From contig JAIXWV010000045.1 in NCBI GenBank assembly GCA_027491115.1, forward strand, positions 1 to 50,774: a stretch of 50,774 nucleotides of DNA. Reading direction: 5' to 3'. Each line of letters opens with the position of its first letter. The stretch's first letter is position 1. Origin of the DNA: Pseudomonadota bacterium (GTDB lineage: Bacteria > Bdellovibrionota > UBA1018 > CAIMNF01). The translations under genes were made by a program, and so were the position numbers. This document shows positions 6,101-33,065 of the stretch, piece by piece. Under the pieces are notes generated by a model. It was not told where the DNA came from. It searched no databases and was given only the letters and a program-made list of their open reading frames with translations.

Positions 6101-7035
6101 CTCTCGTCGAAATTCTTGGCCCATACACCGAGCTTTTGGTTCTCCGCTACAGTGAGGAGGATTCCTGCTGTAGAAAACTCCTCCGACGTCCCAGATCCGA
6201 CTTCCACCTTGCAACCTGCATCAGAGTAGAATTTGATCTGGGTTCCGCCATCCGGAAGAATCCCTGACAGGCGAGGGGTGGTCGAGGTCCGATTGGGGGA
6301 GACCGGAAGCACACTCGTCAACTCGGGGCCACTGATGGCAGTGGAATCGTGCGAGTAGGTGCCGAGAAACGCGCACGCAGAGCCATTTCCAAAAGGCTCG
6401 AACGCCCGTCCATAAACCTCCGTTTCACGGTTGGGAGCGAGTGGGAGGCCGATTCCAACCGTAGTGAACTCTTCCGAGCTTCCTGAAGCTATTTGTTGAC
6501 TGCAACCGGAATCTCCATAGAGCCTGACATTAACGGTGTTGCCAGAAACCTCACCGAAGATTCTTGGCTCAGCGACCACTTTTGAAGGAGGGGCCGGATC
6601 AAACGAGAGGAAAAGTGGGCTCGGAGGGGCGGTGTGAAGGGGATCGTAGGTCGTGACGTAGACACATTTGTTGTTCGTGTTGTTCGAAGCCCAAATATCG
6701 GTTTTTTGGGTACTCGAAACTTCGGCAACGATTCCAGGATCGATGTAAGTGCGAACTGGCCCTTCTCCGAGTGGAGATGAGACGCACATTGAGTCAGAAT
6801 GAAATCGAATCGTGGTCAATGGATTCGAGTCGGGGAAATAGTTGTTACCGCGAATTCGGATCGAAGCTTGGCTCGAGTCATACGAAAGTTCCTCGAGAGA
6901 GGTGAATGTGATTCCCCGGACTCGGACATCATTGAGAGGGACATCAATTGAGCATGCAGAAAGCACACCCAACAAGAGGAGCATCGCCCCTCTCAGGAGT
7001 CCACCTGACCACGTTGAAACAGTCGCCCAAAACAT
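127..7035 (-). CDS. giant outer-surface lipoprotein with two-Cys Ig-like modules and 12 Fn3 domains
   Basis: The 2302-residue product starts with a lipoprotein signal: hydrophobic residues 17-25, then LSAC with lipidated Cys28. The ATG at 7035 follows a GAGG ribosome site. About eight modules of roughly 85 residues span residues 60-840. Each has a DxxC near its middle and an SxC(T/S)YLTxY-like end, suggesting one disulfide per module. About twelve fibronectin type III modules follow (residues 840-1920), with the usual core Trp and paired Tyr residues. The last 380 residues are non-repetitive and may be a separate beta domain. Fn3 and Ig-like chains usually act as stalks or adhesive rods, so a cell-surface adhesion or scaffold role is inferred. 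It is the last gene of a three-lipoprotein set, 99 bases after the 1090-residue gene. No enzymatic motif was seen. Confidence 0.9.
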   Translation of the reverse strand: MFWATVSTWSGGLLRGAMLLLLGVLSACSIDVPLNDVRVRGITFTSLEELSYDSSQASIRIRGNNYFPDSNPLTTIRFHSDSMCVSSPLGEGPVRTYIDPGIVAEVSSTQKTDIWASNNTNNKCVYVTTYDPLHTAPPSPLFLSFDPAPPSKVVAEPRIFGEVSGNTVNVRLYGDSGCSQQIASGSSEEFTTVGIGLPLAPNRETEVYGRAFEPFGNGSACAFLGTYSHDSTAISGPELTSVLPVSPNRTSTTPRLSGILPDGGTQIKFYSDAGCKVEVGSGTSEEFSTAGILLTVAENQKLGVWAKNFDESGHSSFCTYLTTYQHDNLPPAAPAFTTTVPLSPSGATLYPKVKGTIAADAAQVRFYNNRACTVGIGSGTRAAYVSTGIPVSVIENDTTVIYGAAIDAAGNASSCVELAFFVSDTIPPDPPVYSGTDPTSPTNKSFTPKIQGGVSPDTENVSLFSDIDCQIQIGTGSAADFIAAGIQVTAGNNAQTTIYGKSYDMVGNGTDCTYLTTYDHSTAIPPAPVYQTANPVTPTNVTNKPFLIGSLSPIITQVQLFADAGCTSMIGAGTAKNFRSTGIGITVAMNAVTPVYSKALDKYGNESECTFFVNYTHTNITPSAPVFQSYSPTPPTRMSSTPLIKGTAPTNPVAIIPSSRLVFYDSQFCVNRIGLGSVADFQGGGILVNAGVNSITNIHARAFDEAGNGSACTNMSPFIHDNLLPGRPIFLSSSPGSPSYNRQALIKGYLGPTSDFLAASTVTLFSDEACTQQIGYGPVGLFTTTGVEATMLYNATTTVYGFTTNIVGSDSVCSYLTNFLHAPEGGSELMATALPNGSVILSWLPDFVANPAPDYHVKRSTRAGGPYTTIQITKSANFRDVYTTNGETYFYTIESINSTGKSVYSNEANAQALTSRPIAPTLLSATPGSGKVSLDWQGDIKDLTYSLFRSFSPGGPYQVLASHLDKTTYVDDTAPNDQAVYYVVKAVNPAGVSPASPEASAMAKDQPPAPTRLTAAWAIGACGAGQDGVLLTWSAPAYHNGFFVNFGTTAGSTQILTRVTGKSYLSCMPTWWGNTDTNYPLPPDYEEHYTVSANWGGFPGAQSNEVVLNHVRPNLTVTPGNGEIVVDWTPTGNAPSYVLRRALSPNGPWSVISNVAGNYYLDTTVSNGTAYYYTVEPEYVAGSQYGIQSPYAAAIPGPNPGAPTNLRMVIVSNRAYLSWTAPAHYNAFNIYSATAPGGPWTLRFTSPTNTWQDLVPQFGMNYYRVTTRWGESYESTPTASIAFRNGVSTSINATANATAVTVTWNAVVGASKYILKRSTSSRGPYTVISNNAVSPFTDSGVTADTAYYYVVAAEFADTTQGQDSAETSAMPGNGKIPSGLTVTSVGQNSVNLAWGRVTGASNYRVYWGQTNNGPYDQIPLMTGTNSISIPGLTADTTYYFRISSFSPGESPRSVQIAATTRNTPSAPLVVAGNNSVKVDWGGVSGVSGYNVQRSTDGNSFTTIASNLSTFTLTDTGLTNGQIYFYRIIAVFPNGSQTSPTSSSVTPGVVPRVPAGLAVIDNSNGTEVTLYWAPVPGATGYGIYTYQGGTYTSYGFSTNNSEPLFGQIEGTPVSFAVTALNGTNESGYSPLITVVPSNSGTAPTATMLGNAVQVSWSSAPFATAYTLERSTDSINFQVIASGIATLAHTDSAVISGQAYFYRYRPEYTGGHIGGASATSAPVTPGNPLLIPANLVARASDVAQVSLQWVQSPNAVSYSVYRSSTAGGPYAFKESVTTPDTSYVDNTVIPGSAYYYVVTSVNESGVNSPYSNEAGVDFTVSVPSGLAANPTNGTTQVNWNPAGGATQYFLFRSFEETGSYSLIYAGASTNFSDPDVLHGVDYFYKVAARFSSSGTSPMSTAVMATGIATLDLIVPVELTDQPLASDRTDITFESTQTSFDPDDYDGTRTYALEVVAMNHDTSNRSLKWLDWHGTEVGEVVIPGNSTEPTLFKNSITIPSGVSAYRIKIEGTSEAGQLQVLSARLMVKQVGATRTKLYFPLLSKASTPSASDSLNPLHSTSSMDYLTLAQSQRFTRNLASQSTLGEFNSWELEAVVSSQQDAIGSFALRNLSQDALVEDSQTYFKSQTVTLSRVPISEGLDYFSSANEGNQYDIVVRCDRNCTNQVQIYKAGLWLKVQNLSKVEVLQRLTLGASYPDGPAVLADSRAVVDLGGYSNPKFGLSVAASTPMMTLLDVLLSSAGSSSSSTTGLNPIAGSNLSFGLPDMTTQTTPMNLNLTNGDHLVVEVNGPAGAVVREAGLLIQAHR

Positions 7036-7134
7036 CCCAAACCTCTAAGGTTCTTAACGACTTGCCCTCAACTTAAGTTTAGCAAAAAAGAGGGGTGTCC
7101 GGACTGTGGCAAGATTGACAGTGTCTGATTTGAC

Positions 7135-10100
7135 TCAGTGCCCGAGTTGAACTTTCAGATGGTTGTTGGTACCATCGAGCACCAGCACGTCGAGTTTCCC
7201 GTCAGCGTTGAGATCAGTACCCGACACTGCCGAAATGGCACCCGGCATCATGAAGAGATCTGAGCTGTTACTGAACTGCCCTCCAGCCATACTGGCTAGG
7301 TACCCGAAAGCGTTTTGAGTGTTCAGGGCAACCAGGAGATCCGTTCTCCCTCTCCCGTTCCAGTCACCCGCAAACAAAACCCCCGGTGTTGCGTCTATTG
7401 AATAAACCACTTGAGGTGTGAATGATCCATCCGAGACACCGTGCAAAACACTGACGGTTCCATCTCCGAAGTTCGTTACGGCTAGGTCCACCAGGAGGTC
7501 GTTATTGAAATACCCACTGACCAATCCAGTGGGGAGACCACCGGTTAAATAGCCTACAGGGGCGCGGAAGGTCCCGTCTGGATTCCCTATCAGGATGCTA
7601 ACCGAGCTGTCGGAATAATTGACTGTTGCCAGATCAGGAAGGCCGTCAACGTTAAAGTCGGCTGAGACGATTCCATTTGGAGCACTTCCAGTGAGGAAGT
7701 CGACTTTAACATTGAATGTGCCGTCACCGTTTCCTGTCAAGATACTGACCTTTGAAGTGGACTGATTGGAGGTGGCCAGATCCAGGTGACCATCACGATT
7801 GAAGTCTCCTACCGTGATTCCGGTGGGATTGTCTCCTGTTCCGTAGGGGACCATAGTCTCAAAACTGAGGTCACCTCTGCCGATGAAAACCCCTGCAGAG
7901 TTCCCCCCCTTGTTCACCACGATCATGTCCTGTTTGCCATCACGGTTCAAATCAGCAACCTCGACCCAGACCGGCTGAGTACCCGTGGAGAGCGTTGATT
8001 TCAACTTCAGGTGCCCGTTGCCCAAGCCTTCGAATACGGTCACGGTATTGGAGCCCTGATTGACAACCATGACATCACGCGCGCCGTTCGAATCAAAATC
8101 TCCGGAGGCAAGATGGGCTGGAGCGTTCCCGACAGGGGTGACAAAATCAAGTTGACCCAAAGGGTTGCCTGATAGCACTCGGACGGTGGCATTCGCAACA
8201 TCCACAAATGAGATGTCCGGAACATCGTCGTTGTTCGAGTCGTAGACAACGAGAGAAACCGGGCTTCCATTTACGAAATCAAGCTTCGGTAAACTGAATT
8301 GACGCGTGGTAACTCCATAAAACGTTCCGACATTCATGTCGTCCGTGTTCGAGACCAATAGGTCATTTTTTCCGTCGAGATTGAGGTCAGTCACGACGAC
8401 TGAGCTGGGAAACAGCCCCGTAAGCAAGCTACTGGTGGAGGTCAAGTTACCCAGTCCGTCCCCGTAGAATATGACAAGGTTGGGTTCGGCGGAGTTAGTG
8501 GTGATCAAATCTGGGTGGGCATCTCCATCTACATCGGCTGTGGTGATGGAGTTCAAGCCTAGCCCTGAATATGCTTCAGCATAGTTGCCATAAGTTCCAT
8601 CCTCTTGACGAAACAAAACGCCGACATATCCGGTTGCTGAGTTGGCAACTGCAAGATCGACTTTTCCATCTTCGTTCCAGTCAACGGCGGTGAGAGCAAT
8701 CGGCGTGTCCCCTACTAAAAAGCTTTGTGCCGGCCTAAAGCTACCGTTTCCCTCACCGTAATGCACTGCTACCAAATCGTCTTGCATCGATGCGGTTGCT
8801 AGGTCAAGGTGAGAGTCTCCGTTCAAGTCGGCCACGACTAATCCAGAAGGTACTGCAACGGTGTTCATCACCTGGCCAATGAGAAATGTTCCATCACCGT
8901 TACCCAATAGGCGTGAGATTTGGCCGGATCCATTGCAAGCCACGGCCAAATCAATGTGTCCATCCTCATTCAAGTCACCGGATGCAATTTTGGTTCCTCC
9001 GGAGCATGCACCCAGTCCATAGGTCCTCATTCTCGCAAAAAGTCCGTTTCCACGGCCGATCATGATACCCACGGTGTTTTCGGCTTGGTTCAATACAGCC
9101 ATGTCTCCGAATCCATCGTCGACAAACTTGGCAATCACCATTGAAACCGGGGTGTTTCCTGCTAAAAACGCATTTCCGAATACTGATGTTCCCTGGGTGG
9201 ATGCCCGAGCCTTGAATGAAACAGTCGTTCCACCGCTTCCGGCGAGGTCAGGAAGAGATCCAGACAGTGGAGAGACTCGAAACGTGCTTCGAAGTGATGA
9301 GTACCCCATGGTCACAGGAATCGTGATGTTCCCGGAAGCATCAGTAATTTTGATAGCACTTCCGTTGAACATGGCATCACCTGAAGTCCGAACCACGACC
9401 AGCGGGTAGGAGGGGATGCCGTTGCCATAAGGGTCTGCCAGCTTGGCCACAAGAGGTTGTGGAAACGCGGTTCCGACCGGAACAGTTTGATCGTCCCCGC
9501 TTACGATTTCGATATGGTCCGGATCACCGGCGAGGGCGGTGATGTCGATCGCCCGACTCACACCGAGCGAGTCAGTAACAGTCAAAGTATCAGTGACGTA
9601 GGCTGTTCTCCCTGTGGTGTAGGTCCGGGTAGTCGGATTCAGGGTCCCCCCCGATAAGTTTGAACTGAGCACCATGGTGTAGGATCCCGATCCACCCGTG
9701 ATGGTGAATACTTGAGGGGTATCCACTCGGATGGAGACAGAGGCAGGAGAAATCTCAAGAGCGTGTTTCTTCCATTCGACCGACGTTTCAGACGAATTTC
9801 CCGCTGGATCGACCGCAATCACCCGGATGGTGTAGTTCCCGTCGGATGCTTTCGGGAGGTTCAGCGAGTAGGCGGAGTTGAGGCACTGGGTTGAACCTGC
9901 ACCGTCTCCACCGAGTGACACTATCGATCCCGTTTCACAAGCGCCTGACAAGGTGAGTGATGCACCTGCTGATAGAAAGGGGCTCACGGCAGGGTTGATC
10001 AGTGTGGGTGCGGTGACACTCGTTTTCCTGATCCAGACGACCGGGGTGGAGATCGATGCATTTCCGTTCAGGTCAAGTTGAGTGATCTGGAACGGATACA

Positions 10101-10407
10101 CCCCGTCTGATGTTTTGAGAATCGTGAATTGGTAGCTGGAATTTGCCTGACATTCGGTTTCTTGAGAGTCCGCACCTTCGAGTCTGAGGATGTCTCCGAC
10201 CATGCAGAACCCTTCGATCGTGAGCAGACTCGATCGAGAATAGTGGGGATTTGCCGAAGGGCTCACCACGGTCGGTTGCTCCACGATGGGAGTCTCCTTG
10301 TACTCCCGGTACGGAGTCCCGTCGTAGGTGACTTTCCCACCGAATCTGCACCCTGACAGGATCGTCAGTGCCAAAATCAGGATGTGTTGACCCCCTCTGA
10401 GCATCAT
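7135..10407 (-). CDS. lipoprotein with 14 FG-GAP/VCBS-type propeller blades
   Basis: The 1090-residue product has a short lipoprotein signal ending LSGC, with Cys20 as acceptor. Residues 30-210 look like two bacterial Ig-like modules, each with paired Cys. Residues 210-400 hold two further beta-rich modules, the second resembling invasin-type Big_1. From about residue 415 to the end there are 14 blades of roughly 48 residues, most with a DxNxDGxxDL calcium-loop motif followed by a GNGDGTF-like strand. This is the FG-GAP/VCBS repeat family, as in integrin alpha propellers. Fourteen blades would fit two seven-bladed propellers. Blades 12 and 13 have degenerate metal loops. The start overlaps the stop of the upstream 1959-residue gene as ATGA, which implies translational coupling. 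The likely role is calcium-dependent surface binding; the ligand is unknown. Confidence 0.9.
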   Translation of the reverse strand: MMLRGGQHILILALTILSGCRFGGKVTYDGTPYREYKETPIVEQPTVVSPSANPHYSRSSLLTIEGFCMVGDILRLEGADSQETECQANSSYQFTILKTSDGVYPFQITQLDLNGNASISTPVVWIRKTSVTAPTLINPAVSPFLSAGASLTLSGACETGSIVSLGGDGAGSTQCLNSAYSLNLPKASDGNYTIRVIAVDPAGNSSETSVEWKKHALEISPASVSIRVDTPQVFTITGGSGSYTMVLSSNLSGGTLNPTTRTYTTGRTAYVTDTLTVTDSLGVSRAIDITALAGDPDHIEIVSGDDQTVPVGTAFPQPLVAKLADPYGNGIPSYPLVVVRTSGDAMFNGSAIKITDASGNITIPVTMGYSSLRSTFRVSPLSGSLPDLAGSGGTTVSFKARASTQGTSVFGNAFLAGNTPVSMVIAKFVDDGFGDMAVLNQAENTVGIMIGRGNGLFARMRTYGLGACSGGTKIASGDLNEDGHIDLAVACNGSGQISRLLGNGDGTFLIGQVMNTVAVPSGLVVADLNGDSHLDLATASMQDDLVAVHYGEGNGSFRPAQSFLVGDTPIALTAVDWNEDGKVDLAVANSATGYVGVLFRQEDGTYGNYAEAYSGLGLNSITTADVDGDAHPDLITTNSAEPNLVIFYGDGLGNLTSTSSLLTGLFPSSVVVTDLNLDGKNDLLVSNTDDMNVGTFYGVTTRQFSLPKLDFVNGSPVSLVVYDSNNDDVPDISFVDVANATVRVLSGNPLGQLDFVTPVGNAPAHLASGDFDSNGARDVMVVNQGSNTVTVFEGLGNGHLKLKSTLSTGTQPVWVEVADLNRDGKQDMIVVNKGGNSAGVFIGRGDLSFETMVPYGTGDNPTGITVGDFNRDGHLDLATSNQSTSKVSILTGNGDGTFNVKVDFLTGSAPNGIVSADFNVDGLPDLATVNYSDSSVSILIGNPDGTFRAPVGYLTGGLPTGLVSGYFNNDLLVDLAVTNFGDGTVSVLHGVSDGSFTPQVVYSIDATPGVLFAGDWNGRGRTDLLVALNTQNAFGYLASMAGGQFSNSSDLFMMPGAISAVSGTDLNADGKLDVLVLDGTNNHLKVQLGH

Positions 10408-13400
10408 TTCGGATACCTGGTGATCCTGTGAGTGTTTTCGTCGCTGACGTAGACAAAGTGATTGTCCACGGTGATGCCATAGGGCGCCGCGAATCCGCCA
10501 ATGTTATTCGAGTTTCCGAGCAAGAGCCCTTGCACGGCACTTCCTCCCTGACACCAGTCAGGCGTCACACCGGTCGCACCCACACAGTCTGGACTTGTGA
10601 CTGGACCCGCAGGAGAAGTCCCGATTCCACCCCGCCAACCGAGAACGGTCCCGGTGGTCGCATTCATTTTGCCTACCAAGGTGGTTCCATTCACGACGGT
10701 GTAATAGAGGTGCCCGTTCGAGAAAGCGAGTGATGCGGGTCCAAAATTGTTCCCAAAGTTCGGAGTCGTGGTCCAGACGTTGGTATACACTCCCGGGTGA
10801 GTGTAGGAAGATCTCTCATAGATCCCGGTTGCGAGATTGAACATATCAATCCGGCTGTTTTGTGTGTTGGCAACGTACAATTTTACGCCATCGGAGGCAA
10901 TACCACCGCGCCCGTTGTTGAAGCAGAACCCACCGCCCGGATCGCTTCCGCAGCTGCCGTTTGTAGAGTTCCCACCTGTCGACCACCCATTAGTCAGGAT
11001 CCAGCCGCTCTTGTTCACAGTAGCAGGACTGATACCGGTGGAAGTGTTGACCCGACCGATCCAGCCCTGGAAAGAACCGGTGTTTGCGTTATAAGAAGAT
11101 ACCCGGTGATTGACCTGGTCGATCACATAAAGGTTTCCCGATGCGAAGGTGATGGCACTCGGTGAGTTCAGGTATCCGTTTGCGTTGCCTGCAACTGGAA
11201 AACCTCCGACGCACCAGCCTGGAGTGAAGCGGTTCACGGCATTGGTACAGGCCGCTGAATCCGATGCTGTGGCCGGGCCAGTCGTGGCCGTACCGCTGAT
11301 GCCTCCAATCCAGCCACGGTAGGCGCCATCACTGAGCCGGAAGCGGTTGATCCGGTGGTGACCGATGTCGGTCACGTACAAGAAGGTCCCATCGCTGGTG
11401 ACGCCCGAAGGCCAATACATGAACCCGCCGGCATTGGTCGGAGCCAAGGTCCAGTTATTCTGAGTAAAAAACGAGGGGTGGAACATAGCCCCCAAGCACC
11501 AGCCTGAAGTGACCCCGATCGAGTTGCTTCCGCACCCTAGAGTTCGAGTGATGCCACTGACAAATCCACCGACAGCACCGACCCAGCCCGTGGTGTCTCC
11601 AGTTCGGGCATCAATCTGTTTCAATCGCCCCGCCCAGACCTCTGTAGCGTAAAGATTGTTCGAACCCGCATCGAAATGAAGCCCAGAGGGCGCATACATC
11701 GAGTTGTCATCGAATCCATGCAATCCGGCAATGGCTTGAGAGTCGGACCAAGTAGCTGGACTATCGCCGACATTGACCAGCATGCCTTGATAGTTTCCTG
11801 TCGTCTTATCGAATTTTTTGATCGCCGGAAAGTTGGTTCCTTGCCCGACCAGGATGCCATCTGCTCCGTCATAGGCAATGGCGCCGAGACCAAAGAACGA
11901 GGTCTCGTCGATCCCGAACTTGGCGGTTCCGCCCATACACCAGCCGGTGGTGTTCGAGTTCACACCTACTGTTGAGCAGGTACCGCTCGGGTTACCGGAA
12001 GCATTCGCCAAGGACGCGGTGGTGTTGACTTTGCCGATCCAGCCCCACAGCGTTCCGTTGGTGTCGACTTTTGCAATCCGATTTGTGTCGGCGATGTAGA
12101 AGTACGTTCCGTCGAAAGTGATCTGGGCGATTCCGTTGAACGCCATCGGGGAGTTATTGAACGTCACATTACCGATGTAAGCCCCGGTGGTGAGATTGTG
12201 CTTGTAGATCGTGCCACCGTTATTTCCCATGGATGAATAGAGGATGTTGTTGGCCTCATCCGCCCAAACTCCACCCATTGCACCCATTCCACCGCTTCCA
12301 ATTCCTTGGTTCAACCAGTTTTGTCCGCCGATGCACCAGCCTGGTGTACGGGTATTGGTAGCAGACGTGGCACAGGTGTTGGAAGCACCGGGAGCCGCAG
12401 CCAGAGTAGAAGCCACGGGGGCTCCTGTGGAAACGGCCCCGATCCATCCGATCCACCCGCTATAGGCACCGGTGCTCAACTTGATTCTGGAAACCATGCC
12501 GTGGTTTCCCGTATAAAGATAGGTTTCTCCGGTTTGGTCGGTGGCGATGGCCATCGAGTAGGTCAGGCCCGGGCTAGTCCCGACCTGGATGTAGTTGTTG
12601 TTATGCCCCCCCCAACGGCACCAGCCTGGGGTCGGCGAGTTATTTGCGTTGGAAGGAGAACAGTTCATGAGAGAGTTCCCCTCATGGTCAATGCCGGGAC
12701 TCAGGCCGGAGTTGTTTCCGATTCGGCCGATCCATCCGGTGAACTGACCCGTGGCGGCATTGAATCGAGTGATGTTGTAGTTACTCGAATTGGAAACATA
12801 GACGTAAGTTCCATCACTGGCGACTGCATTCGGTGAATGCATGCCTCCAGAAGTGATGGCAGAGGTCGCCACAGACATTCCCCCCTGACACCAGCCGGGA
12901 GTGATAAAATTGTGCGCCAAGGTGATGCACTGGTTGGCGAGCGAGGCAGCCGCAGTGGAACCCATGGAACTGCTCAATGCAAAGGTGTTCGCACCCGTTG
13001 GGCCTACGCCGCCCCAGCGGGTGAGCATCCCCAGCCAACCGATGTATTGATTGGTCTGATAATCATATTTGATCACGCGATGGTAGTTGGCATCAGCAAC
13101 ATAGAGGTAACGCTTGGATGGGTCAAAAGCGAGGGAGTTCACGCCGGTCGGAGCATCGATCCGCCCGACAATGGGAGTCTTGCCACTTTGCCAGAGGATC
13201 GGAGATCCTTCGGTTTCCGTTGCGGTCCCGCCGGCCCCTCGACCAAGACCGGAACCGATCCAACCGGGAGAGGCATTCACGGTCCAAGACATTTGGGCAG
13301 GAGTCAGGATGGGCGGAGCAGCCGAATCGGAAGCCAAGAAAGAAGGTGTGTCCGGATAGAGTCCTCTAAAGTAGAAGATCCGAGTGCTGACACCCTCTGC

Positions 13401-16283
13401 AAAATTGAGCTCGCTAATTTCATTGGAGCAGGCACTGTCGTTGAAGAATTTCCCGGAATATCCTGCCCCGGTGAGCCCCGCAGTGATCGGGGTCACCGCG
13501 CCCGCCGCATTACCCGCACCATCGATGGTTCTCAGTGTAAACGGACCGGCGCAGATGTTGGTTCTTGAGTTGGCCGGAACCGGACCGGTCAGAGTCATTC
13601 CTGAGGGAGAAATCTTAACCTGAATCGTCGCTGATTCGGAAAGGTTTCCTGCAGGATCAACAACCTTGACACTGATGGACTCTGCCGTCATGTCCTTCAG
13701 GTAGATCATCTGGCTTGCAGCACCTTGCGGAATGGAGAATGCTGAACCCAAGAAAGTTGTGGCTGCCGGATTGCTGTAGAACGCAGCCTGGGTGCCAGTC
13801 AAACCTGAAATATTCAAAGTGATGTTCTGTGGAGCTTGAACCGCATTCCCGAGGGAATCCATCAAAGTGACGGTGTAGGGGCTCGAAGGCTGCCCGGAGA
13901 TGACCACTGTCGGACCCACAAAACGGATTTGTGAGGCGTTGACCATCACCACTACGGGGGCGGACGCAGGTGAAATCACATTGGCCGGATCAGCCACGGT
14001 CAAGGATATGGTTTCTGCCAAGGGATCCTTGACGTAGAAAGTTTTAGTGCTTTCACCGGCGGCAACCTTGAATGCGGATAGATTAGTGACGGGATTATTC
14101 GTACAGGTTGAGTCCTCCCAGAATGTAGCGCTTCCGAGGGTCCCTGCGATCTGGAAAGGCGTTTCATCTTTGACCCTTCCTGTGGAACCGTCAGCGCCCA
14201 GGGTGGTGATGGTGAAAGCCGATGAACAACGACCTGAAATGATGGAGGTCGGTCCACTGAGTGAAACTTGGGATGGCGTAACGGTCAAATTGTGAGTTCC
14301 CTGGCTCATGATGAGAGACGGGTCACGAGCCGTAAGCACTAGGCTTTCCGCTTTCTGGTTCTTAAAATAGAGGGTCTTGGTGTTCGAACCGGTGGAATAG
14401 GTCACACTCGTCACGGGTGTTGTTCCGGCGCAGCTGGTGAAGAATCCACCTCCACCGGTCCCGCTCAATTGAATCACGGTGCTGGCGGTCGCATTGGCAG
14501 CGTTACCACCGATATCCTGGAGTTGAAGCGTGAAGGCAAGAGCGTTACTGCAATTGCCCGATACAAAACTCGCAGGACCCGACAGGGCGAGCCTAGCAGG
14601 GGCACCCGATACGACTTGAAAGTTGTTACTGTAAGCGACAGTGAGTGGAGCTGAGTTTGCGATCAACTTGTAGGTTCCGATACGGTCGATTCCGAGACCA
14701 TTGAAGGTGGCGACTCCGTTCACTGCTGGGACCGTGGTCGTTCCGGTCAGATTCGCCCCACTGACGTTGTTGAAGATCGAGAGAGTGATATTGGCACTCG
14801 AGGTCGTCACCACGTTCCCCTGGATGTCGAGGACTGCGGCTTGGACCGAGTTCATGGTGGCCACCCCAGCTGGAGCGTTGAGGGGTTGTTGAACGAAGCC
14901 GACTTTTGTTGCCACGCCGGCCACAAAGGTTGCCGAGGCGGTGACAGCAGTCAATCCGGACGGTGAACTGATGCTTAGGGTCCGAGTTCCGGCTACGGTC
15001 GTAGTGATCGATCCGGAGGTCAATCCGGCCGAATCTGTGTTGGCCACAGGCTGGCTCAGGGTATCGTTCGAGTTGGTGGAAGCGAACTGGGGTCTCACTC
15101 CAGAAATCGGGTTCTGAAACTGATCAGCGAGTTCGAATGTGACCGTATAACTCGCGTTACCGTTGGCAATCAAAAAAGAGCCTGGGGCTGAAGCTGGGGA
15201 TAGAGTGATTTTTGAGGTCAATGGTGAAACCGTCGCAGGGACAATGGTGAATTGGCTCGAGTCTTTGGTGAAGCTGGGCGCTCCCCCGGTCTGATTCGAA
15301 GTGTCTTGTTTGGTTGCGGTCAGAATTTTCACTCCGGCTTCCTGAAAATTAATTCCGCTGAAGGTGGCCACGCCACCGACTGCAGCGATGGTCGCGGTCC
15401 CCCGGATCGTGCCGGCCGAGGGACTCAAAGCAGACAAAGTCAAGGTGATGAGTGCGGTCGAGTCAGGACCGGAAGATACCAGATTGTCATTGTCATCGAG
15501 AATTCGAATGACAGGTTGAGGTCCGAGGGCGGTACCCGCGGGTGCACTTCCTGGCTCAGTGACATACTGCAATTTCGTGGCTTGGCCGATTGGAATGAAG
15601 CTCACCGTTTGAGTATTGTTGTCAGTAAAATCGGCAATGGTCGTATTGACCCGGCAGGTATAGGTGGATCCGGGAAGAAGGCCGGTCAAATCTGCTGAGG
15701 TCACACCCACGGTATTCGTGATGCTCTTGACCAGAGTGAAGTCCGTCGCAGTCCCCCATTTGCAGTAAATGCCTGCTGAATCGGCGTTGCTGATGTCTGC
15801 AAAATTGACGGTCGCGGTGGTGGAGGAAGTCACGGTCGCCGAGGCGATCCCGCCATAAGGGATGGCGAACTTGTCCACCATGTTGTCATCTTCCACGTTC
15901 TTGGCAGTGGCAGCTTTGACCCGAAAAGTACCGAGGGTGACCGTCGTCAAGCCGGTCAGAGTGAAATTGGTGGCCGGAGCGAGAACGGTTTTTAGGAGTT
16001 TCGGAAAGAAGAAATTGCTCGAATCATAGATGTTGTATGCGATCACCTTTTCATCAGTTGAAGCGTTCCACTTGATTTGAACTTTATTGGCGCTGAGAGT
16101 GTTCGCCTCGGTGATGCCCGTGAATCCAGCGTAGGGTGCGTTGTCTGCTCTCTCAGCTGCGGCGCCGGTGAGCGTCGTGATGGACACTTCCTGTGGTACA
16201 AACTGACAAGCACTCACACCAGCCAGAGCGCTCAGAGTGAGAAAAAACTCCCGTAGTCTAAGATTCAGTCTATTTTTCCGCAT
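10404..16283 (-). CDS. giant lipoprotein with Ig/Fn3 stalk and NHL-like Trp/Cys propeller
   Basis: The start at 16283 gives 1959 residues. It is preferred over the in-frame ATG at 16313 because GAGG lies just upstream and the signal peptide then begins MRKNR and ends GVSAC (Cys26). Residues 35-230 hold two Fn3-like modules. Residues 230-560 hold three invasin/Big-like modules. Residues 560-1020 hold four modules opening with SGP and closing with a KTFYVKD-like strand. From about residue 1040 to the end there are NHL-like repeats with GT(Y/F)xYVxD and NxxRIxRF strands. Each blade closes with GWIG and carries an insertion C-x(9-14)-GWC-x-GG, present about eight times. Members of this arrangement are presumably surface propellers. 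The gene heads the three-lipoprotein operon and is divergent from the coiled-coil/LysM module. Confidence 0.88.
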   Translation of the reverse strand: MRKNRLNLRLREFFLTLSALAGVSACQFVPQEVSITTLTGAAAERADNAPYAGFTGITEANTLSANKVQIKWNASTDEKVIAYNIYDSSNFFFPKLLKTVLAPATNFTLTGLTTVTLGTFRVKAATAKNVEDDNMVDKFAIPYGGIASATVTSSTTATVNFADISNADSAGIYCKWGTATDFTLVKSITNTVGVTSADLTGLLPGSTYTCRVNTTIADFTDNNTQTVSFIPIGQATKLQYVTEPGSAPAGTALGPQPVIRILDDNDNLVSSGPDSTALITLTLSALSPSAGTIRGTATIAAVGGVATFSGINFQEAGVKILTATKQDTSNQTGGAPSFTKDSSQFTIVPATVSPLTSKITLSPASAPGSFLIANGNASYTVTFELADQFQNPISGVRPQFASTNSNDTLSQPVANTDSAGLTSGSITTTVAGTRTLSISSPSGLTAVTASATFVAGVATKVGFVQQPLNAPAGVATMNSVQAAVLDIQGNVVTTSSANITLSIFNNVSGANLTGTTTVPAVNGVATFNGLGIDRIGTYKLIANSAPLTVAYSNNFQVVSGAPARLALSGPASFVSGNCSNALAFTLQLQDIGGNAANATASTVIQLSGTGGGGFFTSCAGTTPVTSVTYSTGSNTKTLYFKNQKAESLVLTARDPSLIMSQGTHNLTVTPSQVSLSGPTSIISGRCSSAFTITTLGADGSTGRVKDETPFQIAGTLGSATFWEDSTCTNNPVTNLSAFKVAAGESTKTFYVKDPLAETISLTVADPANVISPASAPVVVMVNASQIRFVGPTVVISGQPSSPYTVTLMDSLGNAVQAPQNITLNISGLTGTQAAFYSNPAATTFLGSAFSIPQGAASQMIYLKDMTAESISVKVVDPAGNLSESATIQVKISPSGMTLTGPVPANSRTNICAGPFTLRTIDGAGNAAGAVTPITAGLTGAGYSGKFFNDSACSNEISELNFAEGVSTRIFYFRGLYPDTPSFLASDSAAPPILTPAQMSWTVNASPGWIGSGLGRGAGGTATETEGSPILWQSGKTPIVGRIDAPTGVNSLAFDPSKRYLYVADANYHRVIKYDYQTNQYIGWLGMLTRWGGVGPTGANTFALSSSMGSTAAASLANQCITLAHNFITPGWCQGGMSVATSAITSGGMHSPNAVASDGTYVYVSNSSNYNITRFNAATGQFTGWIGRIGNNSGLSPGIDHEGNSLMNCSPSNANNSPTPGWCRWGGHNNNYIQVGTSPGLTYSMAIATDQTGETYLYTGNHGMVSRIKLSTGAYSGWIGWIGAVSTGAPVASTLAAAPGASNTCATSATNTRTPGWCIGGQNWLNQGIGSGGMGAMGGVWADEANNILYSSMGNNGGTIYKHNLTTGAYIGNVTFNNSPMAFNGIAQITFDGTYFYIADTNRIAKVDTNGTLWGWIGKVNTTASLANASGNPSGTCSTVGVNSNTTGWCMGGTAKFGIDETSFFGLGAIAYDGADGILVGQGTNFPAIKKFDKTTGNYQGMLVNVGDSPATWSDSQAIAGLHGFDDNSMYAPSGLHFDAGSNNLYATEVWAGRLKQIDARTGDTTGWVGAVGGFVSGITRTLGCGSNSIGVTSGWCLGAMFHPSFFTQNNWTLAPTNAGGFMYWPSGVTSDGTFLYVTDIGHHRINRFRLSDGAYRGWIGGISGTATTGPATASDSAACTNAVNRFTPGWCVGGFPVAGNANGYLNSPSAITFASGNLYVIDQVNHRVSSYNANTGSFQGWIGRVNTSTGISPATVNKSGWILTNGWSTGGNSTNGSCGSDPGGGFCFNNGRGGIASDGVKLYVANTQNSRIDMFNLATGIYERSSYTHPGVYTNVWTTTPNFGNNFGPASLAFSNGHLYYTVVNGTTLVGKMNATTGTVLGWRGGIGTSPAGPVTSPDCVGATGVTPDWCQGGSAVQGLLLGNSNNIGGFAAPYGITVDNHFVYVSDENTHRITRYPK

Positions 16284-16449
16284 ACGTGCCTCGTCAGACC
16301 TATACCCAATCATTTTACTCTGTTACCATCAGAACCCGAAATCCAAACGGGTGCATCACTTCTTCGGGAAGGTGTGAGTGAAACTTGAATCATTGATTTC
16401 AGATCTAAGTGTCTGAATTTTGACGAAAACTGATTTCGTGGAGAGATCC

Positions 16450-27419: not shown

Positions 27420-28559
27420 TCAGGAAAGCTCACGAACCAGCGCGTCAGAAAGTGCGAATCCCCGGGGGGTGGCCCGGAGTCGACCGCCCAGGCGGGGGTG
27501 TGGCTCGAGGAGCCCTTCCCGGACCAAAATTTCGACCTTTTTGCGTCTGGAATCTGAGTCAATCCAGTCTTGGGGGAACCCTTCCTCCAAACGGATGGCA
27601 AGCATCCATTTCTCCAGATCCAATTGGTCCGGAGTAAGCTCCTCCCGTTCCTCAACCGGCAGGCGCGGGGTGTCTTCAAGAAGGGGGGTAGCCCATCGAT
27701 GGAGAGAATTGGGGTTGCGGAATCGGATTGGGGCGGAATTAGAGAATGAGTGAGCTGAGGGTCCGAGGCCCAGGTAGGATCCTCCCGTCCAGTACACGAG
27801 ATTGTGCCGGGCTCGATGACCCGGTTTTGCAAAATTCGAGATCTCATAATGATCGAAACCGAGTCCGGTCATTTTTTCGTGAATGAAGGCCAGATGGTCC
27901 AACTGCTCACGCTCATCAGGAAGATCCCGAAACATGGGATGTCCCGGGGTCAGGGTCAGAAGGTAGATGCTCAAGTGAGTCAGGGGAAAGGCGGTCAGCC
28001 CTTGGATGTGTGAATCGAGATCTGCGAGGGTTTGCCCCGGGACGCCGCAAAGCAGATCCGTGGACACATTGTTGAATCCTGCCGCAAAAACTGACTCGAG
28101 AGCATCAAGTGCCTCCTTCTCGTTATGTACTCGCCCGAGCTTCAGGAGATGGTCGGAGCGCAAGCTTTGCACCCCCATGCTGACGCGGTTGATGCCCAGC
28201 TCCCGGTAAGCTTTGAATCGCTCACGGGTGATGGAAGATGGATTCGCCTCCATGGTCCACTCATACCCTTGGCCCGGTGTGGTCCATTGGAACAGGGACT
28301 TGAAAATCCGCTCCATCGATTCCGGAGGGGTCATGCTGGGCGTGCCGCCCCCGAGAAATACCGTTTCAAGTTGATCGGCGAATTCTCCGCGCTCTCCACG
28401 AAGTTGGATCTCGCTCAGAAGGGCTTTCTCAAAAAGGTCAGGGTCGCCATTCCCCGTCTTTTCCCGTCCCAGCGAATAAAAGTCACAATAATGACACTTG
28501 GTCTCACAAAACGGAAAGTGAAGGTAGATCGAGGAATACCTAACGGGGCCGTCGTTCAT
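27420..28559 (-). CDS. hemW: HemW-family radical SAM protein (heme chaperone)
   Basis: The 379-residue product contains the radical SAM cluster motif CETKCHYCDF (Cys18, Cys22, Cys25), which binds a [4Fe-4S] cluster and S-adenosylmethionine. A GGGTPS motif lies near residue 70, and a HemW-type C-terminal domain carries YWTGGSYLGLGPSAHS. HemW proteins are related to coproporphyrinogen dehydrogenase HemN but mostly act in heme trafficking. The extra Cys that HemN needs for its second SAM site was not identified, which favours HemW over HemN. It is upstream of grpE with about 57 bases between the genes, so cotranscription is likely. Confidence 0.92.
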   Translation of the reverse strand: MNDGPVRYSSIYLHFPFCETKCHYCDFYSLGREKTGNGDPDLFEKALLSEIQLRGERGEFADQLETVFLGGGTPSMTPPESMERIFKSLFQWTTPGQGYEWTMEANPSSITRERFKAYRELGINRVSMGVQSLRSDHLLKLGRVHNEKEALDALESVFAAGFNNVSTDLLCGVPGQTLADLDSHIQGLTAFPLTHLSIYLLTLTPGHPMFRDLPDEREQLDHLAFIHEKMTGLGFDHYEISNFAKPGHRARHNLVYWTGGSYLGLGPSAHSFSNSAPIRFRNPNSLHRWATPLLEDTPRLPVEEREELTPDQLDLEKWMLAIRLEEGFPQDWIDSDSRRKKVEILVREGLLEPHPRLGGRLRATPRGFALSDALVRELS

Positions 28560-28639: not shown

Positions 28640-28667
28640 TTGTTTTCATGGCCGGATCCGCTAAACT
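28640..28667 (+). promoter_or_regulatory. sigma-70-type promoter for the Gly/Met-rich protein gene
   Basis: TTGTTT at 28640-28645 and TAAACT at 28662-28667 are 16 bases apart, a good fit to vegetative -35 and -10 boxes. Transcription would begin near 28674, giving a leader of about 60 bases that includes the stem-loop at 28684-28705 and a GAGGAG ribosome site. Confidence 0.55.
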
Positions 28668-28683
28668 ATTTTTGGTACCCCCC

Positions 28684-28705
28684 CTCCAGAAAAGGACTTC
28701 TGGAG
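28684..28705 (+). promoter_or_regulatory. 5'-leader stem-loop
   Basis: CTCCAGAA and TTCTGGAG form a perfect 8-bp stem with a 6-base loop (28692-28697), placed about 10 bases after the predicted transcription start and 28 bases before the start codon. No T run follows. Such 5'-terminal hairpins often protect abundant mRNAs from decay; that role is inferred here. Confidence 0.5.
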
Positions 28706-28733
28706 ACGAGAAGACGTTTTGAGGAGATCACTC

Positions 28734-31079
28734 ATGTCTCAGACTTTTTTTAGCAAGATGCTTGCCGCACTGATGGCGCTTACCATGGCTTTGCCTTCGG
28801 GAATCGGAATCCCCGAGGCGAATGCGGATCTCATTCCGTCTCCGAACAACGTTCCGGTGGCACCGAACTCCGGCATAAGGTTTTGTAACACCTACAGCGT
28901 CGACGAAGTTTCCGCGGCCAAAGGCAGTGCGATCATGTGCATCGACAATCAGGGGCGCCGATCGGTGATCGACACCTCTTCCGAGCGCAGTCGTTTCCTG
29001 AAGCGGGGGAACGCTTATGTGGTGCGTACCACTCCTGTTGCGGACCTCACCCAGTCCCAGCGGCGCAGGCTGAATATCGACGAAGGTGGCAGTGGGGGCT
29101 CAAGTGTCAGTACCCGCAACAAAGATCGCGAAGAGCTCGACATACTGGTAGATCAGTGTGGTGGATTTCCAGACTACGCCAAGCAGCGTGAAAAAGAGCG
29201 CGATCAACTCAATGATGACATCAAGCGCTACCGTTGCACCGGATCTGATTGTGTCAACATCGACAAGCTGAAGGCGGATCGAGACCAAGCCCTGAAAGAC
29301 TGTCGCAAGGATTGTCTCAGAATCGCAGTAGAAGACGATAAAAACGCCTGCCATCACAGTAAAGTGTTTAAGCGGACTGCGGATTTTTGCAGCTTCTTGA
29401 CTCTGAATGACAAGGATTTCTGGTTACAGGACTTCCTCAAAAAGAATGCCACTGGGCAGGATGATTGTACCACCGCCATTAACAATCCGGATTCTCGTGA
29501 TGAAACCAAAGCGTGCGGCGAGCTTTTGAGAAATGACTCTTGTGCGAGCCAAATCACCGGACCGAGCTTCAAGTGTGATCAGAAAGATAAAATCATCGCA
29601 TATGATCATGCCGCACGAGAACTGGATGAGCTTGATAAGAGACGCGCGGCGCTCGATGGTCCGACAAAAAAGGGATATTGCAATGTTTCTGGGGCAAAGG
29701 ATGCTACGGCAGCTTGGAGCAATCGTGACAGTCATTCACTTAAGTGCCTCATTGATATCCAATCTTCTTGCTCCGATGCCATTGATCGTGCTCAAGCCCG
29801 GGTTGATTCAAACATCTGTGTGAATTGCAATGCTGGTAGCCAGCAGGCCAACACCTGTCTCTACGGGCCTTGTGGTGGCGGAGTCAGTAAGGCGGCTCAG
29901 ATCATCAGTGCGATTGGTTCGATCGGTGTTCCGATCGGGCTCGGTCTCATGAACATGTCGATGTACAACCGTGGGTTGCAAGCTTGTGTGGCGATGTACA
30001 ACTCCCAGGTGACGCAGGGCCAGGCCGTGGGCCTGCCACCCCAGAATCCGAATTGCGGAACCGGTGGGTTTGGCATGGGTGGCTTCATGGGTGGTATGGG
30101 GGGCATGGGCTTTCCAGGAATGGGCGGCTTCGGCATGGGCTTTCCAGGAATGGGCGGCTTCGGCATGGGCATGCCTGGAATGATGGGCATGGGCTTTCCT
30201 GGAATGGGTGGTTTCGGCATGGGCATGCCTGGAATTGGCATCAATGCTGGAATCGGGCTTGGCATGGGTATGGGTATGCCTGGAATTGGGCTCGGCATGG
30301 GCATGGGCATGCCTGGAATGATGGGTATGGGCATGCCTGGAATGATGGGTATGGGCATGCCTGGAATGATGGGTATGGGCATGCCTGGAATTGGGCTTGG
30401 CATGGGCATGGGTATGCCTGGAATTGGGCTCGGCATGGGCATGGGTATGCCTGGAATTGGGCTCGGCATGGGCATGGGTATGCCTGGAATTGGGCTCGGC
30501 ATGGGCGGTGGATTCCCTGGTATGGGCGGCTTCGGCATGGGTATGCCTGGAATGATGGGCATGGGCGGTGGATTCCCTGGTATGGGCGGCTTCGGCATGG
30601 GTATGCCCGGAATGATGGGCATGGGCGGTATGGGGATGAATCCCATGGTCGGCAACATGATGGCTTCCCAACAAAATGCCATGGGAATTCAGCAGCAAAT
30701 GATGGGTTATCAGTCCGCCATGCAAGAGATGGCCGCTCAAAACATGATCCTCCAGAGCACAGGCATGATGGGCATGGGCATGGGCGGTCAGTTCGGCATG
30801 GGTTACCCCTATTTTGGAATGGGCGGTATGGGCGGTGGTTTCGGCGGGATGGGAGTTCCAGGCTTTGCCGGTGGGATGTTCCATCCAGGCATGGGTAACC
30901 TCGGAATGGGCGGAATGGGAGGTTTCGGCGGAATGGGAGGTCTCTCAATTCCCGGAATCAGCATCAATGCCGGACTCAATCTCGGAGGATTTGGCGGAAT
31001 GGGTGGTTTCGGTGGTTTCAACCCCTACATGTTCGGGGGAGGGGGCTGCGGAATCCAGATGGGAATCCCCTGTTACTGA
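28734..31079 (+). CDS. secreted Cys-rich protein with Gly/Met repeat region
   Basis: The ATG at 28734 follows GAGGAG at good spacing and gives 781 residues. The signal peptide is residues 1-32, ending PEANA. Residues 40-400 are charged and hold about two dozen Cys, including CxxxC pairs, likely structured by disulfides. A hydrophobic helix with AAQIISAIGSIGVPIGLGL lies near 390-410. Residues 444-636 consist almost only of Gly, Met, Pro, Phe, Ile and Leu in units such as GMGMPGIGLGM, MGMGMPGM and GGFGMGMPGM. After a Gln/Met-rich spacer a second Gly/Met/Phe block fills 677-765, and the protein ends in GCGIQMGIPCY. No known family was recognised. The strong promoter, 5' hairpin and terminator suggest an abundant monocistronic product. 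An adhesive, structural or metal-binding surface material is conjecture. Confidence 0.85.
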   Translation: MSQTFFSKMLAALMALTMALPSGIGIPEANADLIPSPNNVPVAPNSGIRFCNTYSVDEVSAAKGSAIMCIDNQGRRSVIDTSSERSRFLKRGNAYVVRTTPVADLTQSQRRRLNIDEGGSGGSSVSTRNKDREELDILVDQCGGFPDYAKQREKERDQLNDDIKRYRCTGSDCVNIDKLKADRDQALKDCRKDCLRIAVEDDKNACHHSKVFKRTADFCSFLTLNDKDFWLQDFLKKNATGQDDCTTAINNPDSRDETKACGELLRNDSCASQITGPSFKCDQKDKIIAYDHAARELDELDKRRAALDGPTKKGYCNVSGAKDATAAWSNRDSHSLKCLIDIQSSCSDAIDRAQARVDSNICVNCNAGSQQANTCLYGPCGGGVSKAAQIISAIGSIGVPIGLGLMNMSMYNRGLQACVAMYNSQVTQGQAVGLPPQNPNCGTGGFGMGGFMGGMGGMGFPGMGGFGMGFPGMGGFGMGMPGMMGMGFPGMGGFGMGMPGIGINAGIGLGMGMGMPGIGLGMGMGMPGMMGMGMPGMMGMGMPGMMGMGMPGIGLGMGMGMPGIGLGMGMGMPGIGLGMGMGMPGIGLGMGGGFPGMGGFGMGMPGMMGMGGGFPGMGGFGMGMPGMMGMGGMGMNPMVGNMMASQQNAMGIQQQMMGYQSAMQEMAAQNMILQSTGMMGMGMGGQFGMGYPYFGMGGMGGGFGGMGVPGFAGGMFHPGMGNLGMGGMGGFGGMGGLSIPGISINAGLNLGGFGGMGGFGGFNPYMFGGGGCGIQMGIPCY
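30064..30642 (+). repeat. in-frame tandem repeats coding Gly/Met-rich units
   Basis: Short in-frame units repeat throughout. A 24-base unit encoding MGMGMPGM occurs three times around 30307-30385. A 33-base unit encoding GMGMPGIGLGM recurs around 30390-30505. A nearly exact 60-base duplication covers about 30505-30624. All repeat lengths are multiples of three, so copy-number change would keep the frame. The biased composition also leaves several other frames open on both strands; those are artefacts. Confidence 0.9.
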
Positions 31080-31103: not shown

Positions 31104-31136
31104 GGCTCCGGAGGTGATCCGGGGCCTTTTTCTTTT
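31104..31136 (+). terminator. intrinsic terminator after the Gly/Met-rich protein gene
   Basis: GGCTCCGGA pairs with TCCGGGGCC (9 bp with one T-G pair) around a 5-base loop, immediately followed by TTTTTCTTTT. It lies 25 bases after the stop codon and separates this gene from rpsA. Confidence 0.9.
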
Positions 31137-31259: not shown

Positions 31260-33065
31260 ATGGCTAAACTCAATACAACCGAATCTGCTCCCAAGCAGAA
31301 GAAGGAATTGCTCAAGAACTTGAGCTGGATCAATGAATTCAGCGATGTCCAGGGCGACATCAATGAACAAAAAGGCACTGTCGGCGCTGAAGACTTCGGC
31401 GCTCTCTTCGAACAGGCCCAGAAAGACAGCGGCATTCAAGAAGGTGCCGTCATCGACGGTAAAGTGGTTGCTGTCGGAACCGACGATGTCACGGTCGATA
31501 TCGGCTTCAAATGTGAAGGTTTCGTACCCCTGTATGAATTCAAAGATGCCACCGGTACTGCCAAAGTCGCAGTGGGTGACATCCTTTCTGTTTACGTCGA
31601 ACGCCTCGAGATCGAGCATGGAAAAATCCATCTCTCCAAAGATCGCGCCGACATCATCAAGGCTTGGGACGAAATCTCTGCCGCCTGTGACCAGGATCAG
31701 CTGGTCGAGGGGATCGTGATTGCGAAGGTGAAAGGCGGCTTGGCTGTCGACATCGGCGTGAAGGCGTTCCTGCCCGGCTCCCAGCTCGACACCAAAGCGG
31801 TGAAGAACCTGGACAAGTTCATCGGTCAGCGCATGAAATTCAAGATCTTGAAGTTCAACAAGAAGCGCGGAAACATCGTCCTCTCCCGCAAAGCGGTAGT
31901 GGCCCAGGAGCGCGAGCTCCAGCGCGCTGAGACTCTGTCCCAGATGCAAGAGGGAATGGTGGTCGCCGGTACCGTGAAGAACATCACTGAGTACGGCGCA
32001 TTCATCGACCTCGGCGGTATGGACGGACTCCTCCACATCACTGACATGTCTTGGGGCCGTATCAAACACCCGAGCGAGCTCTTCAATGTCGGCGATGAAG
32101 TCAAAGTGAAGATCCTGAAGTACGACCGCGAAAAAGAACGCGTTTCTCTGGGTCTCAAGCAGGTGTCTCCGAATCCTTGGGATGAGGCCGAGTACAAGTT
32201 CCCTGTCGGCAAGATCGTTAAGGGTAAGGTCGTGAGTCTGAAGGATTACGGTGCATTCATCGAACTCGACGACGGCGTTGAAGGTCTCATCCACGTGTCT
32301 GAGATGTCTTGGACAGAACGTGTCAAGAATCCTTCAAAGTACGTGAAGGTTGGCGATGCGGTTGAGTGCAAGGTCCTCGAAGTGGACACTCGAAACAAGC
32401 GGATCAGCCTCGGCATGAAGCAGCTCCAGGACAATCCTTGGGATGCCCTCGAAATGAAATTCCCGGTCGGTGCGATTGTGGAAGAGTGCGAAATCAAGTC
32501 AATCACTGATTTCGGCATGTTCGTTGACGTCGGCATGGGTATCGACGGGTTGATTCACGTTTCCGACCTTAGCTGGAACAAAAAAGTGGCCAACCCTGCC
32601 GAGAAGTACAAGAAGGGCGACAAAGTCCGTGCTGTGGTTCTCGGAATCGACAAGCAGGCGGAGAAGTTCTCTCTCGGAATCAAGCAGCTTGAGCGCGATC
32701 CTTGGGAAAACATCAAGTCCCGCTATCGTGTCGGTCAGTCTGTCGAGGGTGCTGTGACCAAGATCGCCGATTTCGGTGCGTTCATGGAGCTCGAAGAAGG
32801 CATTGAAGGTTTGATTTACGTGAGCGAGCTCTCCGAGCAGCGCGTAGAGAAGCCTTCTGACGTGGTGAAACTCGGTGAGAAAGTTCGCGCAGAGATCCTG
32901 TCGATCGAGCCGAAGGACCGCCGGATCAGCCTGTCGATCAAGCAGTTGGGTCGTTCCGAAGAACGCGCCAACTACGAGACCTACATGGGCGATCGCAACA
33001 AGAAGACTTCCATGGGAGATCTTCTTGGCGAAAAGCTCAAGGGTGCTCTCAAGAAGGACGAATAA
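31260..33065 (+). CDS. rpsA: 30S ribosomal protein S1
   Basis: This 601-residue protein has six S1/OB-fold RNA-binding domains. The middle and later ones are clear, with repeated V-(K/E)-G-x-V-x-x-(I/L)-x-(D/E)-(Y/F)-GAF(I/V/M) starts and GL(I/L)(H/Y)(V/I)(S/T)(E/D)(M/L)S centres, each ending near (R/K)(I/V)SLG(L/M/I)KQ. S1 delivers mRNA to the 30S subunit and helps initiation on weak ribosome sites, a relevant point since several genes here lack a strong one. It is slightly longer than the 557-residue E. coli protein, with an extended N-terminus of about 45 residues. It stands alone between two intrinsic terminators. Confidence 0.96.
   Translation: MAKLNTTESAPKQKKELLKNLSWINEFSDVQGDINEQKGTVGAEDFGALFEQAQKDSGIQEGAVIDGKVVAVGTDDVTVDIGFKCEGFVPLYEFKDATGTAKVAVGDILSVYVERLEIEHGKIHLSKDRADIIKAWDEISAACDQDQLVEGIVIAKVKGGLAVDIGVKAFLPGSQLDTKAVKNLDKFIGQRMKFKILKFNKKRGNIVLSRKAVVAQERELQRAETLSQMQEGMVVAGTVKNITEYGAFIDLGGMDGLLHITDMSWGRIKHPSELFNVGDEVKVKILKYDREKERVSLGLKQVSPNPWDEAEYKFPVGKIVKGKVVSLKDYGAFIELDDGVEGLIHVSEMSWTERVKNPSKYVKVGDAVECKVLEVDTRNKRISLGMKQLQDNPWDALEMKFPVGAIVEECEIKSITDFGMFVDVGMGIDGLIHVSDLSWNKKVANPAEKYKKGDKVRAVVLGIDKQAEKFSLGIKQLERDPWENIKSRYRVGQSVEGAVTKIADFGAFMELEEGIEGLIYVSELSEQRVEKPSDVVKLGEKVRAEILSIEPKDRRISLSIKQLGRSEERANYETYMGDRNKKTSMGDLLGEKLKGALKKDE

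Follow-up and report, generated by a model that had tools for sequence, protein, structure and literature searches.

The gene at the centre of this work, which encodes an exported protein with a long tract of little other than Gly and Met, is, on the evidence of sequence comparisons, a real, selected, conserved and mostly single-copy gene, and it belongs to a multi-genus family rather than being the curiosity of one strain. It was found in a stretch of DNA of 50,774 nucleotides (here, the window), which corresponds to contig C26 of a 2.55-Mb genome. The 781-aa ORF occupies positions 28734-31079 of the forward strand and begins with an ATG a few bases downstream of GAGGAG (Table 1). A Gly-rich repeat makes up nearly half of the protein, and the Gly/Met tract within it (residues 442-634, 193 aa) is composed of 91 Gly, 56 Met, 17 Pro, 12 Phe, 8 Ile, 6 Leu and 3 other residues, i.e., those six amino acids account for 190 of the 193 positions and Gly plus Met for 76%. 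The original prediction, made from the letters of the DNA, had described about 190 residues made up nearly entirely of Gly and Met, plus a few Pro, Phe, Ile and Leu, and the residue count confirms it. Past the junction that precedes the tract, the whole tail of the window's protein has 342 residues, 41% of them Gly and 1 charged. The same prediction placed an exported, Cys-rich domain at the N-terminus, which agrees with the signal-peptide-like start (judged by eye) and with the distribution of the 24 Cys of the protein, 22 of which lie in the N-terminal half and many of which are invariant in the genus. From these Cys and the signal peptide, we infer that the protein crosses into an oxidising compartment.

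Table 1. Features of the Gly/Met gene and its flanks (positions are those of the window)
Feature	Position	Strand	Basis
-10-like element GCTAAACTAT (TACTATTT in congeners)	28660..28669	+	Alignment of congeneric upstream regions
5' leader hairpin CTCCAGAA-AAGGAC-TTCTGGAG, 8 bp	28684..28705	+	Genus alignment, pairing
Ribosome-binding site GAGGAG	28721..28726	+	Sequence; kept in genus alignment
Signal peptide, residues 1-31, predicted cleavage ANA/D (A-N-A before D)	28734..28826	+	Judged by eye; homologs have similar hydrophobic N-termini
Small alpha/beta subdomain, residues 49-112, with Cys51 and Cys69	28878..29069	+	AlphaFold2, moderate confidence
Cys-rich helical hairpin / coiled-coil domain, residues 125-358	29106..29807	+	AlphaFold2, pLDDT of block mostly 70-95; invariant Cys
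CxxC motif, residues 362-365	29817..29828	+	Near-invariant throughout the family
Hydrophobic, membrane-helix-like junction, residues 386-431	29889..30026	+	Kyte-Doolittle ≤1.66 over 19 residues; region covered by profile A3
Gly/Met tract, residues 442-634	30057..30635	+	Composition; in-frame tandem units of 15-138 bp
Alternating beta-strand motif GIGINAGIGLG	30231..30263	+	Motif count against shuffled tails
Conserved Gln/Met-rich helix, residues 644-678, QQQMMGYQSAMQEMAAQN	30663..30767	+	Alignment; low-confidence helix in model; Gln-rich counterpart in other families
Gly-rich C-terminal tail, end CGIQMGIPCY, stop codon included	30768..31079	+	Sequence; family-wide C-terminal aromatic
Second beta-strand motif GISINAGLNLG	30954..30986	+	Motif scan of tails
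Intrinsic terminator GGCTCCGGA-GGTGA-TCCGGGGCC-TTTTT	31104..31131	+	RNA fold; congeneric counterparts

The signals that flank the ORF indicate that the gene is its own transcription unit. The terminator, a 9-bp stem at 31104-31126 followed by TTTTTCTTTT, was missed by a simple pattern scan and found instead by folding, and a comparable structure follows all seven of the congeneric genes examined, in support of the clean terminator that had been predicted. The predicted 5' hairpin is likewise real and retained across the genus: in 5 congeneric sequences 100% of the cells are paired, with one compensatory C-G to U-A change, although the covariation is no stronger than in shuffles (100/500). At about the same position, G003, G005 and G010 have hairpins of unrelated sequence, and such replacement suggests that it is the structure that matters, possibly as an mRNA stabiliser. 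The case for the strong promoter that had been proposed is a divided one, in that an ACTATTT -10-like element is conserved 5' of the hairpin in the alignment of congeneric upstream regions, but a sigma-70 consensus scan of the upstream region gave no hit at that element.

Comparison with two congeners showed the N-terminal half to be highly constrained (dN about 0.05-0.08, with dS above 1 or saturated), as is the end of the tail (dN 0.06), with the Gly/Met tract less so (dN 0.13-0.15). The distance from the junction to the Gln helix is 124 residues in G001 versus 210 in the window. As the tandem units of the tract are all multiples of three bases, its expansion remains in frame. The low complexity of the region and the many ORFs that overlap it in other frames might raise the thought of a spurious ORF on a simple DNA repeat, but we give that practically no credence in light of the purifying selection, the conservation of the N-terminal half and of the transcription signals, and the existence of relatives in 90 genomes.

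Those relatives were found with a profile (A3) built from the junction only (CxxC through GxPxxxP) and containing none of the Gly-rich tract. It matched in 90 of the 369 genomes of the phylum, representing 50 genera, with E-values down to 2.6e-27; the window itself matches at 1.2e-21 (78.5 bits), a score that arises by construction, as the window is row 1 of the profile. By our own count from the profile table, the window's family accounts for 11 matching genomes out of 13, the order's remaining families for 22 of 42, the rest of the class for 1 of 3 and family f9 for 56 of 129. The 182 genomes of families f10-f29 had none. The CxxC, the hydrophobic helix and the G-x-P-x-x-x-P are present in independent members too, and even where identity in the junction drops to about 13-30%, distant members keep the same order of parts: signal peptide, Cys-containing helices, CxxC, hydrophobic helix, Gly-rich tract, Gln-rich helix and tail. 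Within the genus, homologs are present in 11 of the 12 genomes, the window's own included, and a scan of all species with the genus profile, which reaches mainly close relatives, returned matches in this phylum only. Altogether, the family gene looks like an old and mostly vertically inherited one. One of its f9 carriers, G100, is by matching the putative genome of Halobacteriovorax marinus SJ, and its homolog is located near 561,880-563,499. Profile A3 has no match in G190, which we take to be B. bacteriovorus HD100, and a diverged copy was sought beside lysS in that presumed B. bacteriovorus genome and in others, with none found.

Since many of the relatives' copies are near contig ends, the presence of the gene is probably undercounted. 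At L075, L076, L077, L078, L081, L082 and L093 no more than about 1-3 kb separates the gene from such an end, the breaks perhaps being due to repeats or nearby duplicated sequence. There are also shorter forms. Upstream of the main gene, two congeners, at L022 (2590-3651) and L024 (3447-4640), have relatives of the N-terminal half without the full Gly-rich tail, apparently partial duplicates; hemW separates the short copy from the main gene in L022, and in L024 the two directly adjoin. In f9, second short members of 224-231 aa, with almost no repeat tract, are found at L079 (7632-8306) and L085 (7604-8299), and as these retain the junction and the C-terminal aromatic they could serve as a minimal form for study.

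In the window, the Gly/Met gene stands alone between a hemW-like gene (27420-28559, reverse strand; named from its radical-SAM domain and our reading of the sequence) and an S1 ribosomal-protein gene (31260-33065, forward strand). One or both of these adjoin the gene at all loci of the genus whose flanks were inspected. In families of the same order the adjoining genes are instead those for a CarD-like protein, a VOC protein, a rhomboid, trxB and lysS, and in f9 they are uvrC- and murJ-like, the names outside the genus having been read from N-terminal sequences. The neighbours are housekeeping genes that are specific to each clade and functionally uninformative. Elsewhere in the window (127-16313, reverse strand) there are three consecutive, very large ORFs of 2302, 1090 and 1969 aa, which start with the lipoprotein-like signals LLGVLSACS, ILSGCR and LAGVSACQ.

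The original prediction could name no described family. The family libraries yielded no match: nothing passed the curated cut-offs in scans of Pfam, NCBIfam, PHROGs and PADLOC, where weak matches were mostly to generic coiled coils, and sequence searches of the PDB gave no match with E below 0.8. A search of the open literature found no description of it either, and within the libraries and open papers covered, the family is undescribed; as a general kind, exported low-complexity proteins rich in Gly are known. AlphaFold2 produced a confident helical hairpin for residues 125-358, a less certain alpha/beta part (49-112) and low-confidence helices at the junction (386-431) and at the Gln/Met segment (644-678). 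The tail stayed unstructured in both the full-length and the core model (pLDDT about 30, from only 8 input sequences). Foldseek found no match with E below 0.43, and VIA-align 2 returned only generic helical hairpins, including the coiled coils of SH3BP5, Rad50 and PI3K, at Z scores of up to 9.1, which is under the level that is informative for helical bundles; we rejected those likenesses as generic on that ground.

In 40 non-redundant members (the tail being the region after the junction), tail length ranges over 90-598 residues, with 23-53% Gly, 2-11% Pro and 0-12 charged residues each. Met makes up anywhere from 2 to 28%, while the sum of Met, Tyr, Phe, Ile, Leu, Val, Ala and Trp stays at 38% +/- 5%; Met and the other hydrophobics correlate at -0.84, but proportions must add up to one, which in part imposes such a value, and our argument rests on the breadth of the Met range instead. 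Members such as L042, L078, L065 and L012 have the same architecture and retained hydrophobicity with Met down to 2-4%. By sequence, then, Met in these tails is one hydrophobic residue among several, interchangeable with Tyr, Phe, Ile, Leu and Ala. Gly spacing differs as well, the window favouring 2 and 3 and many other members 4, which excludes a strict silk or polyglycine-II repeat as a family trait.

These data bear directly on whether the protein is a Met-rich metal binder or redox buffer, i.e., a Cu(I)/Ag(I) sponge or a sensor of Met oxidation. A density of 56 Met per 193 residues, in a protein that is Cys-rich and exported, and the high Met content of most members of the window's genus, are what one would hope to see of such a protein, but Met as a ligand residue is not retained across homologs, and no copper-resistance genes were recognised among the adjoining ORFs inspected. 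As Met swings so widely about a near-constant hydrophobicity, the family is unlikely to share a function in Met-specific metal or redox chemistry; Met-rich members may conceivably bind metal, but for the protein itself we regard such a role as improbable. Of the two roles that the original prediction had raised for the Met-rich tract, copper or silver binding therefore loses its support as a general function. The other, that of hydrophobic material, fits better.

The tails carry a second kind of signal. A motif in which Gly alternates with hydrophobic residues, for which GLGISGGFNIG and GIGLGGGIGLG are examples from outside the window, occurs 40 times in 21 of the 40 tails, against about 4 occurrences expected from shuffling. 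An aromatic residue ends the chain in 27 of the 38 complete members (4.9 expected), versus 20 of 147 (14%) neighbouring control ORFs, and hydrophobic alternation is stronger before the C-terminal aromatics than before internal ones of the same tails (p = 0.0018), bearing in mind that such p-values overstate independence since the members are related. In bacterial beta-barrel proteins, the last Phe has been reported as crucial to their integration into the membrane (PMC3596097), and the ends of the family's tails appear to resemble outer-membrane beta-signals. Strand motifs and a terminal aromatic of this kind could also belong to an oligomeric beta pore or translocon in the outer membrane, with the helical hairpin in the periplasm, but no barrel was predicted by AlphaFold2 and the range of tail lengths would be unusual for a pore, and we consider it unlikely.

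Our preferred reading, which we hold tentatively and as somewhat short of probable, is that the protein is a Gly-rich structural component associated with the outer membrane or the cell surface, braced by disulfides, and that its hydrophobic repeats associate with one another. It would cross the inner membrane via Sec, disulfides would brace its periplasmic helical domain, and the CxxC and hydrophobic helix might provide a membrane or oligomer contact. The alternating strands, together with the signal-like C-terminal aromatic, would bring the tail to the outer membrane, where, or at the surface, its self-assembly could yield a layer or fibre, Gly-rich and flexible, with a structural or adhesive role. 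Gly/Pro-rich hydrophobic chains are able to form hydrated, disordered elastomers (PMC5703643). Location, assembly and role are all deduced, and several observations count against them: the tail is unstructured in AlphaFold2, with neither barrel nor sheet predicted, the window's own C-terminus (GIPCY) is a poor fit to a beta-signal save for its final aromatic (Tyr), and the clade-variable housekeeping neighbours provide no functional clue. The signal peptide, the adhesive-like, Gly-rich composition and the separate transcription unit would suit a fully secreted, unanchored glue or matrix protein too, a rather unlikely alternative given that the hydrophobic junction helix and the beta-signal-like end suggest retention and that no dedicated secretion system was recognised adjoining the gene. 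Extending the idea of an envelope-associated structural protein to the whole family, its members may be phylum-specific, outer-membrane-anchored, low-complexity polymers, with a disulfide-braced periplasmic hairpin, delivery by a C-terminal beta-signal and a flexible surface layer, found in obligate predators such as H. marinus and absent from Bdellovibrio; this we offer as a doubtful but conceivable generalization.

What is clear is that a gene for an exported and extremely Gly-rich protein is retained in many genera of the phylum, predators among them, and that striking Met repeats need not imply metal binding, as relatives replace Met by other hydrophobics. Should the protein coat or build the envelope, a predatory lineage would prove to have a structural material that is new, with a bearing on the attachment and survival of its cells. 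The member in the putative H. marinus SJ genome makes the family a testable handle.

Among known systems, the PE_PGRS proteins of mycobacteria also have an exported helical N-terminal part followed by a long Gly-rich, low-complexity part. They belong to a different phylum, however, no PE domain was detected by Pfam in our protein, and its Cys-rich N-terminal half, CxxC-hydrophobic junction and Gln-rich helix are, to our knowledge, not PE_PGRS features. The GGM repeats of the C-terminal tails of GroEL and mitochondrial Hsp60 share the dominance of Gly and Met in a flexible hydrophobic segment, with Met side chains that may contact clients (PMC12571646), a precedent for a chaperone-like, flexible hydrophobic brush that would keep hold of clients in the periplasm. 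We think this improbable for the Gly/Met protein: its 193-residue tract is roughly ten times the length of the approximately 19-residue GroEL segment; the known tails belong to cytosolic or mitochondrial chaperonins; Met is not conserved across the family; Pfam found no chaperonin domain in the protein or in ten relatives; and the nearby dnaK/grpE are on the opposite strand, in a neighbourhood that is not common to other families. Elastin-like and silk-like Gly/Pro-rich structural proteins are similar in their high Gly, some Pro, hydrophobic spacers and near absence of charge (PMC5703643), but no homology to them was detected, and the protein here is bacterial, with a Cys-rich folded N-terminal half and a beta-signal-like C-terminal end. 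As for outer-membrane beta-barrels with a C-terminal Phe beta-signal, no Pfam outer-membrane family matched and, unlike in a barrel, the remainder of the protein is helical or Gly tract; what most members of the family seem to have in common with them is a C-terminal aromatic and the alternating hydrophobics before it.
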